NCBI GenBank assembly: GCA_944391855.1
Contig: CALXVB010000006.1
Coordinates: 1 to 62,079, forward strand
Direction: 5' to 3'
From: an uncultured Clostridia bacterium
GTDB lineage: Bacteria; Bacillota; Clostridia; TANB77; CAG-508
Length of the DNA stretch: 62,079 nt
Part shown: positions 23,288 to 38,581 of the stretch, piece after piece
Layout of the letters: every line of letters starts with the position of its first letter
Position numbering within the stretch: the stretch's first letter is position 1
Translations under genes and position numbers: made by a program
Notes under the pieces: model-generated
Told to the model about the DNA's origin: nothing
Databases searched by the model: none
The model's input: only the letters and a program-made list of their open reading frames with translations

Positions 23288-23390
23288 AAGTTTCCTCCAA
23301 TATTTTAGTACTATATTATTTTCTATATTATTTCTTAAATATATATTAATATTTAATTATTTTATAACTTATATTTACTAAAGTCAATGC

Positions 23391-23465
23391 ACAAATTTAA
23401 ATTATGTAATAAAATATAAATTACATTAATTAAATACAAATTTAAATTATGCAATAAGATATAAA
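23391..23465. repeat. two-copy AT-rich direct repeat in the plsX-DGR gap
   Basis: The gene-free stretch 23288-23608 holds two 30-bp direct repeats (23391-23420 and 23436-23465, 28 of 30 identical, beginning ACAAATTTAAATTATG). A hairpin ATAACTTG...CAAGTTAT follows (23481-23511) and may terminate the DGR transcript on the minus strand, although its T-tract is weak. Confidence 0.5.
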
Positions 23466-23608
23466 TCATAAATATAAAGTATAACTTGGATTAATAAAAA
23501 TTCAAGTTATAATGTTTAAACTAGATCTTTTGATTAAATTAGATGACTGCAAAAATTTATTATATTTTTACTAAATTTTGTAATACCATATTATATATAA
23601 TAATCAAA

Positions 23609-24631
23609 TCACTTTTTTAGTACAAATTCATTAAACATTTTACTAACTAAATTATAGCTATTGCAATGTTTTGCATGACCAACCCATGAATTTATACACG
23701 CTAATATATATTCTAATTCTACTTTATTTTCTTTATATAGCTTTTCAAACTTCTTTAATTTCCTTCTCATTTTCTTTTTACTTTGTTCTCTTAATAATCT
23801 ATGTGTTTTCCATATTCTAAATCCACAGAAATTTACTCCTTGTTTTGCCTTAAAGTATGCTGTTTTGCTATTTAATTCTAATTTCAATTTTTCTTTTAAA
23901 AACCACCTTATTTTTTTCAAATATTCTTTTGCTTTTGCTTTACAATCAAACAAAAGCACAAAGTCGTCCATATATCTTACTAGATATTTTACTTTCAATT
24001 CTTCCTTTATGTATCTATCAAGTTGGTTCAAATAAATATTAGCATATATTTGTGACGTATAATTTCCTATTGGAATACCTACTATCTCATCATCATAAAA
24101 TATTATCTTTTTAGTTAAATTCAAAAAATATTTATCCTTTATTTTTCTCTTAATTAAGTCATATAAAATCTTTCTATCTATATTAAAGAAAAATTTTCGT
24201 ATGTCACATTTCAGCACCCATACTTCTTTAAACTTCTTATCTGCTCTTTTTAAATATTCTTGCATCTTGTCAACTGCTTTATGTATCCCTCGTTTTTCTA
24301 TACATGCATAAGTATCTAATATATATGAGCTTTCAAAATATGGTTTTAAAAAATTTTCTACATACCATGTTTGCACTACCCTATCTCTATATTCAAGTGT
24401 TTTTATCTTTCTTTCCTTTGGTTCATATATTGTAAATTCAAAATACTTTGAAAATGTATAATTTTCATTAAGCAATTCTCTACCTATTTTTAATAAATTA
24501 TTCTCTAAATTCATTTCAAATTCTATTACTTGCTTTTTAAACCTTTTATGCTTTTTACATTTATTATGTGCCTCTAGTAATTTAGAAAAAGTTATATTTT
24601 TTACATATATATTATTTACTCTTTTAGGCAT
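23609..24631 (-). CDS. DGR reverse transcriptase
   Basis: 340 aa. Reverse transcriptase blocks appear in order: 'LKCDIRKFFFNIDRK' (first catalytic Asp, ~130), 'GIPIGNYTSQIYANIYLNQ' (~180-200) and 'YLVRYMDDFVLLF' (catalytic DD, ~215). The IGxxxSQ form at the template-handling motif is characteristic of diversity-generating retroelement RTs; group II intron RTs differ there. There is no maturase or endonuclease domain. It copies the template repeat with errors at adenines to produce cDNA for mutagenic homing. The start overlaps the avd stop by 16 bp, suggesting translational coupling. Association with Avd, TR and VR makes the call secure. Confidence 0.97.
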   Translation of the reverse strand: MPKRVNNIYVKNITFSKLLEAHNKCKKHKRFKKQVIEFEMNLENNLLKIGRELLNENYTFSKYFEFTIYEPKERKIKTLEYRDRVVQTWYVENFLKPYFESSYILDTYACIEKRGIHKAVDKMQEYLKRADKKFKEVWVLKCDIRKFFFNIDRKILYDLIKRKIKDKYFLNLTKKIIFYDDEIVGIPIGNYTSQIYANIYLNQLDRYIKEELKVKYLVRYMDDFVLLFDCKAKAKEYLKKIRWFLKEKLKLELNSKTAYFKAKQGVNFCGFRIWKTHRLLREQSKKKMRRKLKKFEKLYKENKVELEYILACINSWVGHAKHCNSYNLVSKMFNEFVLKK

Positions 24632-24984
24632 GATTTTATCCAGCCTCCTAATATTCTTCCTATCTCATCTAATCGTTTACTCCATTCTAAGTAATTCTTA
24701 CTACTTATATATTTTTTATTATATGAAAATCTTACATAAAAGCCTTGCATAGCAAGTTCTGCATCTATTTTATTTAATATTTTTATTCTAGTATATTTAT
24801 CCGCTATTTTATTTGCATATAGAATTAACCTTAATGTTTCAAACATACTGTTTCGTATGCTAGTACTTAATGCATATTTCTCTATTTTAGGATATTTCAC
24901 AAGAAGGTTATATCCATAATCTATTACATCAGTATATTTTTGGTATATTAATAATTTACTTTCAACTTTTTTTGGTTTATACAT
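24616..24984 (-). CDS. avd: DGR accessory variability determinant (Avd-like four-helix protein)
   Basis: 122 aa, all-helical and basic, with segments 'YQKYTDVIDYGYNLLVKYPK', 'SIRNSMFETLRLILYANK', 'KINKIDAELAMQGFYVRF'-like and 'YLEWSKRLDEIGRILGGWIK'. These match the bAvd/23S-insertion four-helix-bundle family. Avd forms a pentameric barrel that binds the RT and the TR RNA and is required for cDNA priming and homing. It precedes and overlaps the RT gene, the standard DGR order. The ribosome site (GAGAGA) is weak. Confidence 0.92.
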   Translation of the reverse strand: MYKPKKVESKLLIYQKYTDVIDYGYNLLVKYPKIEKYALSTSIRNSMFETLRLILYANKIADKYTRIKILNKIDAELAMQGFYVRFSYNKKYISSKNYLEWSKRLDEIGRILGGWIKSCLKE

Positions 24985-25116
24985 TTTTTCTCTCTTTCTT
25001 ATCTATATTTTTTTCTTTTACTATCACTTTTTTTACACTTTTATTTATTTTTTTAGCTATTTTTTCTTAAAACATTTATCCACATTTTGTCCATAAAAAA
25101 ACATACCCTTTCTTAA

Positions 25117-25381
25117 ACAAATTTATTGTATAACTAAATACTAAAATACTTATTTTTACTTAAAAATTTAAGTATTTTATATACATAATTAACAAATAAA
25201 TTTGTAATACTAAGATATGTTTTTGCATTAAATATGATTTTTCACATTTAAATATTCATATTTTTACCAACAGCAATTGTTTTATATACTTTTCTACCTG
25301 CTATGGAAGGAATATAACTTGTATGGCATTAATACTCTATATTTATCCTTAAACAAATATACCTGATTTTTGTATGCCATA
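25117..25381 (-). ncRNA. structured TR-RNA 3' spacer (DGR RNA scaffold)
   Basis: The stretch between TR and avd (about 400 nt) has no gene but is folded. Directly after TR, ATGCCATA (25374-25381) pairs with TATGGCAT (25322-25329). Further on, a long nested hairpin spans 25117-25205: outer ACAAATTTATTGT (25117-25129) against ACAAATAAATTTGT (25192-25205), inner AAAATACTTA against TAAGTATTTT. In the Bordetella phage DGR the RNA downstream of TR is essential for cDNA synthesis by RT-Avd. By analogy this is the functional core RNA. Confidence 0.6.
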
Positions 25382-25385
25382 TTAA

Positions 25386-25528
25386 GGCCAAACGGAAAGA
25401 GTTGTTGTTGTTGGCGTTACCATTGTTGTTGTTATAGTAAAACACACCTGTGTTAGAAGCATTGTTGTTATAGTTACCCCCACGTTTGAAGAAAGGGTTG
25501 TTCGAATTCACAAAGTTAGCGTTATCTG
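25386..25528 (-). repeat. DGR template repeat (TR)
   Basis: 143 bp matching the VR at 25720-25862 without gaps. Read on the minus strand it is full of AAC triplets. TR and VR differ at 24 sites, and every one is an A in TR (48 adenines in total); there are no changes at G, C or T. The adenine-free GC-richer end (CTCTTTCCGTTTGGCC on the minus strand) is identical in both and is the likely initiation-of-homing side. A short open frame here is only the template and is not a gene. Confidence 0.97.
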
Positions 25529-25595
25529 TTCAGTTATATCCCTAATGTTTAAGTTTTATGAATTTATTGTTTTTGAAGCTTTTATCATTTTCTCG

Positions 25596-25630
25596 GGTTT
25601 TCGTGCTAGCTTTCAGCCTGCTCGAAAACC
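25596..25630. other. hairpin/cruciform between VR and TR
   Basis: An 11-bp stem with one mismatch (GGTTTTCGTGC, 25596-25606, with GCTCGAAAACC, 25620-25630), lying about 90 bp after the target gene's stop. Hairpins near the homing end of VR are known to stimulate DGR retrohoming. The distance here is larger than in the Bordetella phage case, so the role is inferred. Confidence 0.6.
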
Positions 25631-25707
25631 ATACTATTGTTCTAGTTTTAGTATTTTTTCATAATGCAATGTTAACTTGTTATGTTGTTCAGATTACAGA
25701 TATCACA

Positions 25708-27267
25708 TTACACTACTAGGGCCAAACGGAAAGAGAAGTAGTCGTTGGCGTCACCACCGTTGCTGGTAAAGTAAAACACACCTGTGCTAGAAGCATTGTA
25801 GAGATAGCTACCCCCACGAGGGAAGAAAGGGTAGAACGAATACACAAAGTTAGCGACATCTGAATGCCAACCACTTGTTTCATAAGTTGCATCTCCGTAT
25901 TTATAGTATAGATTTGCCGAACTACTTCCTGAACTGTTGTATGCTGTTGAGTATTCATTACTACTTCCTCCTATACTTGCAAACGATGAGCCATAGCCTA
26001 TATAGGTAGTATTTGCATCTGATCCATTATAGTAACCTGCTACATATTCATATGATCCTCCTCTTAAATCATATATTCCATATTCATTTCCTGTAGAGCT
26101 TTGCAATTTATTTGAATCTACATATGCTGTTCCTGTTCCTCCTCCTGTTAAGTAACTTGAGTTTGTATTTTGTGCTATTTCTGTTCCATTTCTTCCATAT
26201 GTACTTTCTGTTAAATATGCTACTGCACCCCATTCACTATTTTTTAACATATGGCTTTTCAAGTCTGTTGGAGAATATGCTCTTGCATATGTGTACATAT
26301 CTCCTATTTTTATACTTCTAAAACTTGTTTGTCCAGGTTGTACTTTTAAGGTTGTTGCACTTCCTTGTGTTGAACCTACAGTATCACTTCTTGCTGCTTC
26401 GTATTTTCCTATCCATAGTCCACTTATTCCATTATCACTGCTTCCATTATTATTTCCAAATCCTCCACCATATGTTACATCTGCAGTGAATGCTGGATGC
26501 ACCATGAAATAGTCTTTACTTACCATTGTTTTCGTTGTACTTTCTACATTTGCTACTTTCTTGCCTTCTGCATCTACTATTCCTCTACTATCTGAATATC
26601 CTTTTATTTTTCCTTGTGCTTTTGCTTCTTCTTCTGTTAATGTTCCATTTTGATATGCTATTTTACTATCATTACTGTCAAAATATATTATTCTATATGC
26701 ATATCTTGGTATCCATACAAAATAACTATCTATTCCGTCTATAGTTACTCTTGCATTTGCCCATTTGCTTGATCTGTTATCATTTGAACCTGTTCCTGGT
26801 AAATAGCTATATTCTGTTCCTGCTACCCATCTTTCTCGTTCTGTTGTTCCCTCTCCTGTGTATCTTACAAGTTCCATTGTTGTTCCTTCTGGTAAATCTT
26901 CCTTTATTAATGGTGCATTTGGTTCTGTACTTACTTTATCACTTGTTCCACTTAACCATTTTATTTCTATTACTCCATTTGTTTTATCTTCATCTGCTAG
27001 CTCTGTTTCACCTTGTTCTGGTTCTGGTGTTGGCTGTGGTTCAAATGGTAGTACTGATTCTATTTCACTTAATAGTGAATCCAATTGTGCTTGTTCTTCT
27101 TCTTGTGCTTGTTCTGTTAAATCTTTTGCGTCTCGTGCTCTTTGTATTAGTCCTCCTTCTCCCAATACCACATTAATTGATACTGTTGCTAAGATTATTA
27201 GTATTACTATTGTTATTACAAGTGCTATTAATGTAATACCTCTTTGTTGTTCTCCTTTTTTCAACAT
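25708..27267 (-). CDS. DGR variable protein with type IV pilin-like N-terminus
   Basis: 519 aa. It starts with a short basic leader (MLKKGEQQRG) then 'ITLIALVITIVIL', a class III (prepilin) signal with cleavage expected after Gly10 and a ~22-residue hydrophobic helix. An acidic, Pro-rich linker (~70-95) follows. A large C-terminal domain has 'YFVWIPRYAYRI', 'YFMVHPAF', 'GLWIGKYEAA', 'NSEWGAVAYL' and 'GIYDLRGGSYEYVAGYY', resembling the formylglycine-generating-enzyme/C-type-lectin fold used by DGR targets. The last ~48 residues are the VR, ending 'FSFRLALVV'. Inferred role: a diversified surface or pilus-tip binding protein. A consensus promoter precedes it. Confidence 0.93.
   Translation of the reverse strand: MLKKGEQQRGITLIALVITIVILIILATVSINVVLGEGGLIQRARDAKDLTEQAQEEEQAQLDSLLSEIESVLPFEPQPTPEPEQGETELADEDKTNGVIEIKWLSGTSDKVSTEPNAPLIKEDLPEGTTMELVRYTGEGTTERERWVAGTEYSYLPGTGSNDNRSSKWANARVTIDGIDSYFVWIPRYAYRIIYFDSNDSKIAYQNGTLTEEEAKAQGKIKGYSDSRGIVDAEGKKVANVESTTKTMVSKDYFMVHPAFTADVTYGGGFGNNNGSSDNGISGLWIGKYEAARSDTVGSTQGSATTLKVQPGQTSFRSIKIGDMYTYARAYSPTDLKSHMLKNSEWGAVAYLTESTYGRNGTEIAQNTNSSYLTGGGTGTAYVDSNKLQSSTGNEYGIYDLRGGSYEYVAGYYNGSDANTTYIGYGSSFASIGGSSNEYSTAYNSSGSSSANLYYKYGDATYETSGWHSDVANFVYSFYPFFPRGGSYLYNASSTGVFYFTSNGGDANDYFSFRLALVV
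25720..25862 (-). repeat. DGR variable repeat (VR)
   Basis: The 3' coding end of the variable protein. Against TR, 17 codons are changed by 24 substitutions: mostly Asn to Val, Tyr, Phe, Ser, Leu, Thr, Gly or Asp, plus Lys to Pro (AAA to CCT) and one Tyr to Phe. The framework residues (ANFV, PFF, RGG, NAS, TGVFY, SFRLA) are constant. Confidence 0.97.
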
Positions 27268-27322
27268 TTTCTGTTCCTCCTCTTTATTTTTTCTTTTGCT
27301 TAATGCTTTCTGTATGTTTATT

Positions 27323-27350
27323 ATTATATCAATAGTATAATAATTGTCAA
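27323..27350 (-). promoter_or_regulatory. consensus promoter of the DGR variable protein
   Basis: Minus strand TTGACA (27345-27350), 16-bp spacer, TATAAT (27323-27328): both boxes perfect, placed about 55 bp before the start of the pilin-like gene. It faces the divergent XRE gene. Confidence 0.8.
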
Positions 27351-27356
27351 GTATTT

Positions 27357-27376
27357 ATGCGTTATTTTTCGCGCAT
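27357..27376. promoter_or_regulatory. candidate operator between the XRE gene and the variable protein
   Basis: Inverted repeat ATGCG-N10-CGCAT (27357-27361, 27372-27376), just upstream of the -35 of the variable-protein promoter and 40 bp before the XRE start. Its GC-rich arms stand out from the AT background. Plausible binding site for the neighbouring regulator, not shown. Confidence 0.4.
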
Positions 27377-27416
27377 ATTATTATTTATTTTTTGCTATAC
27401 TTTTTTTGGTGATTTT

Positions 27417-27653
27417 ATGTATTTATCAGAAGCAATTAAACTTAGAATTGTTGAACTATGTAATATATATAACTTAAATGTAAATTCCCTTAGTAACAAA
27501 GCAGGTATTAATCCTTCTACTATTAGAAGTATTTTAAAATCTAAATGTAATACTCCTAATACTCAAACTATTTACTATATTTGTTTAGCTTTAGATATGG
27601 ATTTAAAAGATTTTTTTAATTCTAAATTATTTTCTAATTTAGATGATAATTAA
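27417..27653 (+). CDS. small XRE-family helix-turn-helix regulator
   Basis: 78 aa from the ATG at 27417, which has GGTGA 5 nt upstream; the longer upstream frame has no site. Nearly the whole protein is one HTH domain ('LSEAIKLRIVELCNIYNLNVNSL', 'INPSTIRSILKSK', 'YYICLALDMDLKDFF'). There is no effector domain. It is transcribed away from the DGR target gene across a 149-bp spacer with the target's promoter and an inverted repeat. It may control the DGR cassette, but this architecture is common elsewhere in Clostridia too. Confidence 0.85.
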   Translation: MYLSEAIKLRIVELCNIYNLNVNSLSNKAGINPSTIRSILKSKCNTPNTQTIYYICLALDMDLKDFFNSKLFSNLDDN

Positions 27654-27665
27654 TTTTTACATATC

Positions 27666-28145
27666 TTAGTTTTTATGTTTTTTTATACTTTCTATTATCT
27701 GTTTTAGTTGATTTATTAATTCCTCAAAATTTTCTCTTTCTATTTCATATTTATTTATATCTTTAGTATATACATTGTTTACACAATTTATACAATTCAA
27801 ATTTTTTTTATTTTTTTTTATACTCTCTCCTTGTATTTCTAAAATTATATCATAACTCTTATCTTTATATCTATATTTTCCTCCTTTTATCTCATCATAA
27901 ATAGCAACACTTATCTTTTTTTCTTCTAATCTTTTCTTTACTTCTTCTAAATTTTCTCTTACATAGCTAACTGGTAATCCACATTTGCATAAAAATTTTG
28001 CATGACAAGTTCTTTTTAAACCCAAAAGCCTTTCTAAAATAATTGCATCTCTACCTATCGCATTAAAAAATGCACCACTTTTTACCATAATAACTTTATC
28101 CGGATTTTCTTTTTGTAAAAATTCTATAAATTCATAAAATTTCAT
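27666..28145 (-). CDS. stand-alone MutS-domain-I-like protein (DGR-associated MSL type)
   Basis: 159 aa from the ATG at 28145 with AAAGGAGG 6 nt upstream. The first ~85 residues ('VIMVKSGAFFNAIGRDAIILERLLGLK', then 'GLPVSYVRENLEEVKKRLEEK...ISVAIYDE') follow the mismatch-recognition domain I of MutS. The Phe-x-Glu pair of true MutS is not evident ('GAFFNAIG'). A Cys pair (CINC) and a helical tail follow, and there is no ATPase. MutS-like accessory proteins have been reported next to some DGRs. It ends 13 bp from the converging XRE stop. Confidence 0.72.
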   Translation of the reverse strand: MKFYEFIEFLQKENPDKVIMVKSGAFFNAIGRDAIILERLLGLKRTCHAKFLCKCGLPVSYVRENLEEVKKRLEEKKISVAIYDEIKGGKYRYKDKSYDIILEIQGESIKKNKKNLNCINCVNNVYTKDINKYEIERENFEELINQLKQIIESIKKHKN

Positions 28146-28171
28146 TTTTTCCTCCTTTACACACAAAAAAA

Positions 28172-28285
28172 TTGAGTACTCTTTTTTTATTTGAGTACTC
28201 TTTTTTTATTTGAGTAGTGGCATAAACTGTATGCTATGCACACTGTTTATACCACTCATTTCAAGTAACTTCGTCTCTTGAAATG
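28172..28285. repeat. direct repeats and tandem hairpins in the MSL leader
   Basis: Two perfect, adjoining 19-bp direct repeats (28172-28190, 28191-28209; unit TTGAGTACTCTTTTTTTAT) and a partial third copy. Two hairpins follow: AGTGGCATAAAC against GTTTATACCACT (28216-28256, one mismatch) and CATTTCAAG against CTTGAAATG (28257-28285, perfect). They lie between the M23 gene and the MSL gene. They may be a terminator for the former or a structured 5' leader for the latter. Confidence 0.6.
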
Positions 28286-28361
28286 TTTTCTTATTAATCA
28301 ATAAAGCTCTATTATGTTTTATATAATAACATTAGTTATATTTTTTTGCAAGTATTTTTCA

Positions 28362-37045: not shown

Positions 37046-38581
37046 ATGAAAAAATTAAAACTTATTATACTTTTCTTTGTTATATTAGCATTGTTTCTAA
37101 TTATTCATAATGTTTCCAATGCTGCAACAGAATATACATATTCTGATACAGAACAAGGCGTAGAGTGGACTTATGAATTAGATGATAATAATAATGTAAT
37201 AAACTTAAAGTGTAATACATCAACTAAAACCGGAACAATTGTTATACCATCTACAATAGATGGAAAAACAGTAATTTCCTTAAAAGATGGTAATTTATTG
37301 GAAGACAATGGCGCTTTTATGTATTTTTCTGGATTAACAGGAATTACTATTCCAGATACAATAACAACTATAGGTGATTATGCTTTTTATAATTGTACTG
37401 GATTAAAAAATATAACAGTTCCTAATAGCGTCACAAAAATTGGAGATAGTGCTTTTCAAAATTGCTCAGGTATAACTTCTGTTACATTATCAGAAAATCT
37501 TACTTCAATTGGCTCATATGCTTTCGCTGGTTGTAGCGGATTAAAAAGTATTAGTATTCCAGATAGCGTTACTGAAATTGGTTCTTCTGCTTTCAAAAAT
37601 TGCAGTGGATTAAAAGATTTAACTCTTTCTAAAAATTTAACTAAGATATCTGCTGGATCATTTGAAGGATGTACAGGGCTTACAAGTGTAATTATCCCAG
37701 ACTCGGTTACAACTATAATAGGAAATGATACATATTACCCAAATGTTGGTGCTTTTAAGGACTGTAAAAATCTAGAAAAAATATTAATTCCAGATACAGT
37801 TGCAAGTATAGGAGAATATGCTTTTTACGGGTGCGATAAACTAACTATCTATGGAAATGATGGTATGACTTCTAAAGAATATGCTGAAGAACATTCAATC
37901 AGTTTCGACTATATTGCTAACTGGGATAAAGAAGATTCTGGATCTGATATAACATCTCCAACAGTAGAAAAGATAGAAGTAACTTATGATAGTGTTAAGG
38001 ATTATGATAAAGATACTAATAAAAATATGTATATACTTCCATCTAATGCTAAGATAGTAATAAACGTATATTTTAGTGAAGTTGTAGAAGGAACATCTGT
38101 GCCTACTCTAACAATCAAATTTGGAGATGGTAAAAACATAGAAGTAAAAGAAGGCGCAATTAGTGGTTCTACAATTACATATATTTATACTGTAAAAAGT
38201 ACAGATAAAGGAATAATGAGTACAGTTAGTTATTCTGGTGGCAATTTAACAGATGCTGCTGGAAATAAAGCAACCTTAAGTTGCCCTGCTTTAAGAATAC
38301 AATATAGCAGTGGAGACTTTGTATATGCAAATGGAACTATTACAAATCCAGATGACAATAACAACTCAAACAATAATAACAATAATGGCTCTAATAACAA
38401 CGGTTCTAACAATAATAATTCTAATACAGATAATAAAAATGAAGACGGAAAAGATGATACAACCGCTAGCGGAAAACTACCACAAACTGGTTTATCAATC
38501 ACATTGTCTTTAGTAATAGTTGTTTTAATAACTGGTTGTATATTTGCATACATTAAGTTTAAAAACTTAAAAGATATTTAA
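37046..38581 (+). CDS. BspA-like leucine-rich-repeat surface protein with LPxTG anchor
   Basis: 511 aa. A signal peptide ('LKLIILFFVILALFLII', cleaved after about residue 28) precedes a tandem array of ~23-residue BspA/TpLRR repeats (~75-280), seen as recurring 'IPDSVTxIGxxAFxNCSGL'-type units. An Ig-like segment follows (~300-430), then an Asn-rich linker (~440-470). The C-terminus 'LPQTG' plus hydrophobic helix and Lys-rich tail is a sortase-anchoring signal. Such proteins are covalently attached to peptidoglycan and often bind host or microbial surfaces. AGGAGG lies 6 nt before the ATG. Confidence 0.93.
   Translation: MKKLKLIILFFVILALFLIIHNVSNAATEYTYSDTEQGVEWTYELDDNNNVINLKCNTSTKTGTIVIPSTIDGKTVISLKDGNLLEDNGAFMYFSGLTGITIPDTITTIGDYAFYNCTGLKNITVPNSVTKIGDSAFQNCSGITSVTLSENLTSIGSYAFAGCSGLKSISIPDSVTEIGSSAFKNCSGLKDLTLSKNLTKISAGSFEGCTGLTSVIIPDSVTTIIGNDTYYPNVGAFKDCKNLEKILIPDTVASIGEYAFYGCDKLTIYGNDGMTSKEYAEEHSISFDYIANWDKEDSGSDITSPTVEKIEVTYDSVKDYDKDTNKNMYILPSNAKIVINVYFSEVVEGTSVPTLTIKFGDGKNIEVKEGAISGSTITYIYTVKSTDKGIMSTVSYSGGNLTDAAGNKATLSCPALRIQYSSGDFVYANGTITNPDDNNNSNNNNNNGSNNNGSNNNNSNTDNKNEDGKDDTTASGKLPQTGLSITLSLVIVVLITGCIFAYIKFKNLKDI

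Follow-up and report, generated by a model that had tools for sequence, protein, structure and literature searches.

A probably active diversity-generating retroelement with a lectin-like target and additional accessory genes on the chromosome of an uncultured Clostridia bacterium

Comparison with described systems

The archetypal diversity-generating retroelement (DGR), that of the Bordetella phage BPP-1, has its elements in the order avd-TR-brt, with a structured spacer following the template repeat (TR), according to the available passages of PMC12875486. The locus described here lies in a 62,079-nt stretch (the window) of contig CALXVB010000006.1, from assembly GCA_944391855.1 of an uncultured Clostridia bacterium, and with a probability of roughly 93% it is read as a chromosomal DGR, in which a reverse transcriptase (RT) and the accessory protein Avd would copy the TR with adenine errors into the variable repeat (VR) of one lectin-like surface protein. 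The RT shares 37.5% identity with that of BPP-1 and has 8ub7_A as its best solved relative (1.1e-57), Avd matches 4dwl_A (Table 1), and the two systems have in common the adenine-specific change between TR and VR and a structured element after the TR. They differ in that BPP-1 is a phage with the Mtd tail fibre as target, whereas the window is chromosomal, with a prepilin-like target and two extra genes, encoding a MutS-domain-I-like protein (MSL) and a helix-turn-helix (HTH) regulator. RT, Avd, TR and VR, which the initial annotation of this DNA had placed in standard order, are all present, but they run VR-TR-avd-RT, unlike their counterparts in BPP-1.

The passages available from PMC10053308 list MSL (MutS-like, PF01624) among the established DGR accessories. 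The cassette shares this accessory with the MSL-bearing DGRs described there and may differ from them in that Avd and MSL occur together, and in the placing of the MSL gene upstream of the target, beyond the HTH gene and with a covarying two-hairpin element. Cassettes with an altered element order are described in the accessible part of PMC6642488, where putative pilin structures are cited among DUF1566 targets, and PMC8144416, as far as it is available, distinguishes six DGR clades, phage and cellular; within the same limits, the word MutS is absent from the main texts of both, as is pilin from that of PMC8144416. The cassette in the window is a complete, probably active DGR of a known type with interesting accessory anatomy. 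When positions 23,609 to 28,145 were initially called a complete DGR, the core parts were correctly recognized, but the HTH and MutS-domain-I genes within that span went unnamed. The locus adds a DGR from Clostridia with small genomes, one that bears clean natural signs of recent retrohoming, and links it to a prepilin-like, putative lectin where the genome also holds pilus-type genes. It further offers comparative DNA/RNA signals in the form of a post-TR hairpin, a post-VR motif and an MSL leader.

Adenine-specific differences between TR and VR

In the 143-bp core of the computed gapless alignment, TR and VR differ at 24 sites, all of them among the 48 adenines of the TR, while none of the 95 non-adenine sites is altered. 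These counts are exactly those that the initial annotation had obtained by eye, and its statement that G, C and T positions are unaltered holds for the core; a wider gapless alignment of 149 bp (TR 25380-25528, VR 25714-25862) contains 26 differences, 25 of which are at TR adenines (hypergeometric P 3.2e-13), the sole remaining one being a T→C change at the 3′ edge, outside the core. The 17 codons said to be altered were likewise recovered by computation, out of 47 whole codons, with the encoded residue differing in all 17. The TR contains 16 AAC codons, and 15 of its 19 AAY codons are altered in the VR; only one of the 47 codons (AAA) is prone to become a stop through changes at A.

The presence of two repeats would also be expected from a plain duplication followed by adenine-biased point mutation, without an RT, an explanation for which no other support was found and which can be given almost no weight. 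The adenines of the core have become T, G and C (12, 8 and 4 times, respectively), and a deaminase would not turn A into all three; moreover, RT and avd adjoin the repeats, and the way in which the VR tracks its own TR at non-adenine sites, described in the next section, contradicts this explanation.

A search for further VRs with the TR in the window's own genome (1.38 Mb in 57 contigs, 85% complete) yielded one TR and one VR, the sole further match being 15 bp long with an E value of 0.6. The RT gene is an intact open reading frame (ORF) in which both motifs named by the initial annotation are confirmed, the first of them conforming to [ILV]GxxxSQ, the DGR-type RT motif. The Avd-like protein was also rightly identified, as it clears the curated NCBIfam DivGenRetAVD cut-off (94.5 versus 80 bits), and DGR accessory proteins are thus represented by Avd and, in addition, by the MutS_I protein.

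Table 1. Features of the cassette, in window coordinates
Feature	Position	Strand	Basis or remarks
Block absent at the homologous site of congener G017, ends approximate	23417..28354		Homologous up to 23416 and again from 28355
DGR reverse transcriptase, 340 aa, intact ORF, IGNYTSQ and YMDD	23609..24631	-	RVT_1 5.6e-18; phrog_1423 Reverse transcriptase 1.6e-123
avd, accessory variability determinant, 122 aa	24616..24984	-	bAvd 2.1e-28; 4dwl_A 1.4e-5
Conserved hairpin directly 3′ of TR, putative DGR RNA element	25322..25381	-	Position from alignment; 20 pairs
Template repeat (TR), 143-bp core	25386..25528	-	24/24 differences at adenines
23-nt motif GTAATGTGAWATCTGTNATCTGA, putative initiation of mutagenic homing (IMH) site, right after VR, across target stop codon	25689..25711	-	Cassette comparison
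Target gene, 519 aa, VR at end	25708..27267	-	Prepilin-like N-terminus GITLIALVITIV..., FGE-sulfatase/C-type-lectin-like body
Variable repeat (VR), 143-bp core, target gene 3′ end	25720..25862	-	Gapless TR/VR alignment
Promoter-like TTGACA-16-TATAAT, TG before second hexamer, ahead of target gene	27323..27350	-	12/12 matches
HTH_26 (Cro/C1-type) regulator, divergent from target, between MSL and target	27357..27653	+	HTH_26 5.3e-8
MSL, MutS-domain-I-like protein, 159 aa	27666..28145	-	MutS_I 9.6e-8, 32.7 bits versus cut-off 20.6
19-bp repeat GAGTACTC..., 2.4 copies, between hairpins and MSL	28172..28216	-	Repeat analysis
Two-hairpin element upstream of MSL	28212..28290	-	Model R1 (built with it) 95.7 bits

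Retrohoming in related cassettes

A similar RT (E ≤ 1e-30) was found in 37 of 95 related genomes, own genome counted, in 51 match rows, and the closest RT relatives with names come from metagenome-assembled genomes (MAGs) labelled uncultured Clostridium sp. and uncultured Clostridia bacterium. The window and 40 regions taken from these rows, several weak or broken rows being omitted, make up 41 RT loci, some of them on cut contigs; 25 of them yielded an adenine-biased TR/VR pair, 38 carry an Avd-like ORF, 34 (window counted) carry, as MSL-containing DGRs do, an MSL-like ORF for a MutS domain I protein beside the RT, and 33 have both ORFs. A scan of named genomes gave 11 loci, and the ten closest TR-bearing cassettes (L089 to L097 and the window) were compared further, leaving out L098 (a fragment) and L099 (31% identity); L089 and L095 agree in length and content with the contigs G001:C91 and G013:C6 and do not count as evidence additional to L034 and L039. 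All ten share the VR-TR-avd-RT layout and adenine-biased TR/VR differences, and where all parts are present the gene order is MSL, HTH (reverse), target-VR, TR, avd, RT.

Adenine counts refer to trimmed cores, and the trimming score penalises non-adenine differences, which makes the non-adenine counts lower bounds: differences at adenines and elsewhere number 24/0 in the window, 26/0 in L089, 23/0 in L090, 22/2 in L091, 25/0 in L092, 25/5 in L093, 21/0 in L094, 18/1 in L095, 30/1 in L096 and 13/0 in L097, the cores of L095 (with a 9-nt indel) and L097 being partial. With these two set aside as partial, the TRs of the other eight cassettes were aligned with their VRs carried along, in a comparison which core trimming biases toward own-TR agreement, the window core itself having no internal non-adenine difference to trim. 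Where the TRs of the window and L089 differ at non-adenine sites, all 22 cases show the VR with the base of its own TR; the corresponding agreement is 28/28 against L090, 38/38 against L091, 28/28 against L092, 50/50 against L094, 28/28 against L096 and 27/30 against L093, where the three misses carry the base of the other TR. Among the TR sites that the window and L089 have in common, 27 of the 41 adenines but none of the 75 non-adenines carry different bases in the two VRs, and the other six comparisons give differences at 23-31 of 37-43 adenines and 0-2 of 57-73 non-adenines. VR differences at shared adenines, combined with the tracking of the own TR, therefore argue that the VR has been overwritten from the TR after the lineages split.

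The near-identical MAG cassettes L092 and L096 (4515 aligned columns) point the same way on a shorter time scale, with VRs that differ at 32 of 149 positions, 30 of them at adenines of the L092 TR and 31 at an A of either TR. Outside the VR, the two cassettes have 2 differences within the TR, a further 30 substitutions elsewhere and gaps at 2 positions; 26 of these 30 substitutions fall in the RT and one in the 1.4-kb constant part of the target. Because the substitutions cluster in the RT, which in L096 carries a frame change, the L096 RT may have decayed, recombined or been misassembled. The initial claim that the system has worked in this lineage is thus supported by the own-TR tracking, by the near-restriction of VR differences to shared adenines and by the L092/L096 divergence, all of which support retrohoming. 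In L093 (7033-7465), the VR has five non-adenine differences from its own TR, three of which match the window TR, and it seems that the L093 TR has changed since the last homing.

Several observations weigh against the cassette being a DGR at work on a lectin-like protein. Non-adenine differences occur in four relatives (at least 2 in L091, 5 in L093, 1 in L095 and 1 in L096); the window target, taken alone, stays below Pfam thresholds (FGE-sulfatase 0.014, N_methyl 0.031); AlphaFold models are poor, with a mean pLDDT (predicted local distance difference test) of 42.2 for the target and 39.8 for MSL; and the window species is represented by a single strain. The last point would be compatible with a DGR that once worked but has since fallen silent in the window strain, as would the damaged appearance of some relatives, in which the RT is split across two frames (G013/L095, L096 and L097). 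We regard such silencing as unlikely, since RT, avd and target of the window are intact ORFs, the post-TR element is in place, the target promoter has consensus form, and 0 of 95 non-adenine core sites have changed, the single T→C lying just outside.

Elements following TR and VR and the proposed mechanism

The hairpin directly 3′ of the TR is common to the ten cassettes, with 97.2% of cells paired and a covariation score of 0.186, neither value being reached in any of 500 shuffles. Both-side changes are present in only 3 pairs (41 of 500 shuffles as high) and come from L094 and L097 alone, possibly from one event. A model built with this hairpin (R2) scores 121.8 bits at window positions 25284-25399, and over 48 sources it gave strong matches in the ten cassettes, plus nine weak ones (E 0.018-0.96): in L047, L050, L055, L057 and L059 the match overlaps the last 13-18 nt of the detected TR, in L044, L054 and L056 it comes from a locus where no TR was detected, and in L091 it falls after the VR. 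A second DGR group of 11 loci, in which the TR follows the RT, has a similar hairpin that covaries more weakly, with both-side changes in 3 of 20 pairs (46 of 500 shuffles as high) and a covariation score reached by 3 of 500 shuffles.

The 23-nt motif after the VR is exact in eight of the ten cassettes and has 2 mismatches in L094 and L097; allowing up to 3 mismatches, it occurs once in the own genome (control 0). The sequence following the TR differs from it, as IMH* differs from IMH, and the motif is a candidate for the IMH.

In the mechanism that we propose, the RT, aided by Avd, would copy the TR RNA while misreading adenines; the hairpin that immediately follows the TR probably holds this RNA and may also be the place of priming. 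The mutated cDNA would then take the place of the VR that closes the target gene, the 23-nt post-VR motif acting as the likely homing signal. In this way, one lectin-like surface protein would come to vary in its ligand-binding face, and its export and assembly most likely proceed through the type IV pilus pathway.

The target protein and its possible display

The VR closes the 519-aa target ORF and is therefore located at its 3′ end. Among ten members of the target family, FGE-sulfatase is matched in eight (best 5.7e-7) and N_methyl in four (0.01 or better). The best solved match of the family profile is 5vf4_A (8.1e-5), in an alignment that covers the constant core (profile 275-418) and not the VR. 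This structure, which bears the PDB label "Uncharacterized protein", we take to be the Thermus aquaticus DGR variable protein, a C-type lectin of the FGE type; the window target differs from it by its prepilin-like N-terminus. As a single sequence, the target found no solved relative, and because its AlphaFold model is poor, the proposed lectin fold rests on sequence profiles.

The own genome contains a type IV pilus-like locus with a prepilin peptidase, a PilC-like protein (T2SSF), a PilB-like and a second T2SSE ATPase, and prepilin-like genes, PilB, PilC, PilD and PilT being names of pilus-type genes. The target shares its N-terminal region with five other genes of this genome and so belongs to a group of proteins with that start. 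Judged from sequence, the target is a likely surface protein that is most likely exported and assembled via the type IV pilus pathway and may be displayed on the pilus. Pilins generally carry Glu at mature position 5; the target has Ala instead. The pilin-like gene of the pilus locus shares this Ala5, which was therefore dropped as a possible mark of a pilus-tip protein. Upstream of the target gene, the consensus promoter-like sequence stands apart from the weaker promoter-like sites, which show no excess over shuffles (37 versus 36.6).

At L085, L086, L087 and L088 in the own genome lie further proteins that have the same prepilin-like N-terminus with differing C-termini, and those in L087 and L088 carry FRSQLY near the end, reminiscent of FRLAL in the target; no lectin domain was found in these proteins by Pfam. 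Elsewhere in the window (37046-38581), a BspA-type leucine-rich-repeat protein (LRR_5 1.3e-51) is likely a surface protein as well.

MSL, the HTH gene and the upstream element

MutS_I is matched by all six aligned MSL members. MSL occurs in six and the HTH gene in seven of the ten cassettes, the contigs of L090 and L094 being cut on that side. L093 is without MSL and L097 without MSL and HTH, although both contigs reach that far, and MSL is therefore dispensable to the cassette layout. The mismatch-reading motif of MutS domain I is F-x-E, seen as GDFYE in the own MutS; across 39 MSL-like ORFs the Phe is kept in all 39 and the Glu in one. Because its motif is incomplete, MSL was excluded from the MutS mismatch-repair enzymes. 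No solved relative was found for MSL as a single sequence, and the MSL profile gave chance-level matches only.

In the accessible part of PMC12875486, MutS figures as host mismatch repair in the BPP-1 assay, and deletion of mutS was without effect on 18-nt repair. A functional test of MSL is absent from the available passages of PMC8144416, PMC10053308, PMC12875486, PMC6642488, PMC6199706 and PMC10743442. The role of MSL becomes approachable through this family, because of the wide occurrence of similar RTs and the joint presence of Avd and MSL in most of the 41 loci.

The two-hairpin element upstream of MSL shows both-side changes in 12 of 29 pairs, in only four sequences, with 0 of 500 shuffles as high and 2-3 pairs in sliding controls; the count of further pair types is unremarkable (461/500). 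In 292 family genomes, searched by Infernal with stricter filters, model R1 has strong matches only in G000, G013 and G302, two of them beside this cassette and one (G302) on a contig ending inside the repeats, and weak matches (29-35 bits) in four other genomes. Rfam gave no match at the gathering threshold in the window and two sub-threshold matches in the cassette region. The covariation would fit an RNA leader or a DNA hairpin alike.

The tandem repeats adjoining this element (units of about 18-19 bp) vary in copy number among cassettes. As a candidate HTH operator the 19-bp repeat was rejected: TTGAGTACTC, with at most one mismatch, has 3 matches in the window versus 2.8 in shuffles, two of them being the array itself and none lying at the HTH/target promoter, which makes an operator role a guess.

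A tentative and rather improbable reading would be that MSL is a stripped-down mismatch-binding domain, which keeps the intercalating Phe while having lost the Glu, and which coats the richly mismatched cDNA:VR heteroduplex or protects it against MutS of the host. The amount of MSL would be set by the divergent HTH protein and by a structured leader of a new class, composed of two covarying hairpins and variable tandem repeats, and this would amount to a DGR family with a built-in switch for rewriting a pilus-displayed lectin.

Insertion site and genomic context

The genus search covered 30 genomes, own included, and 29 congeners were compared. In 18 of them, the M23 peptidase and plsX lie on the same contig and strand, 153-477 bp apart, with the site empty, whereas 5074 bp (23288-28361) separate the two genes in the window. 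The distance is 1369 and 1895 bp in G015 and G026, where the M23 match is fragmented; five of the remaining congeners have the flanking genes on separate contigs, and four are without plsX or a close M23 match. Nine of the 18 empty sites were aligned, and the block limits in Table 1 come from a close congener. Related cassettes occupy other sites: L089 lies before gatC, L095 before an alanyl-tRNA-synthetase-type gene, L092 after mfd (as do L091 and L093 by eye) and L097 before a phosphorylase-family gene (as does L094 by eye). No recombinase was found among the five genes of the cassette, smaller or overlapping ORFs being outside the search, and visual inspection showed no shared terminal repeats.

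This setting bears on the possibility that the cassette is part of a prophage or phage remnant, the diversified protein being a receptor-binding protein of the phage, which we consider very unlikely. The flanking genes (plsX-like and M23 peptidase) are of chromosomal type and the start of the target is prepilin-like; a viral_contigs scan with one protein, detecting close relatives only, found none; and the best phage RT among the matches listed has 40.3% identity. A phage origin would be in keeping with the RT relatives present in 77 phage records and with three of the six DGR clades being almost exclusively viral, as stated for the clades in the accessible part of PMC8144416. At the plsX-side end of the insertion, there is an intergenic 45-bp tandem duplication (23391-23480).

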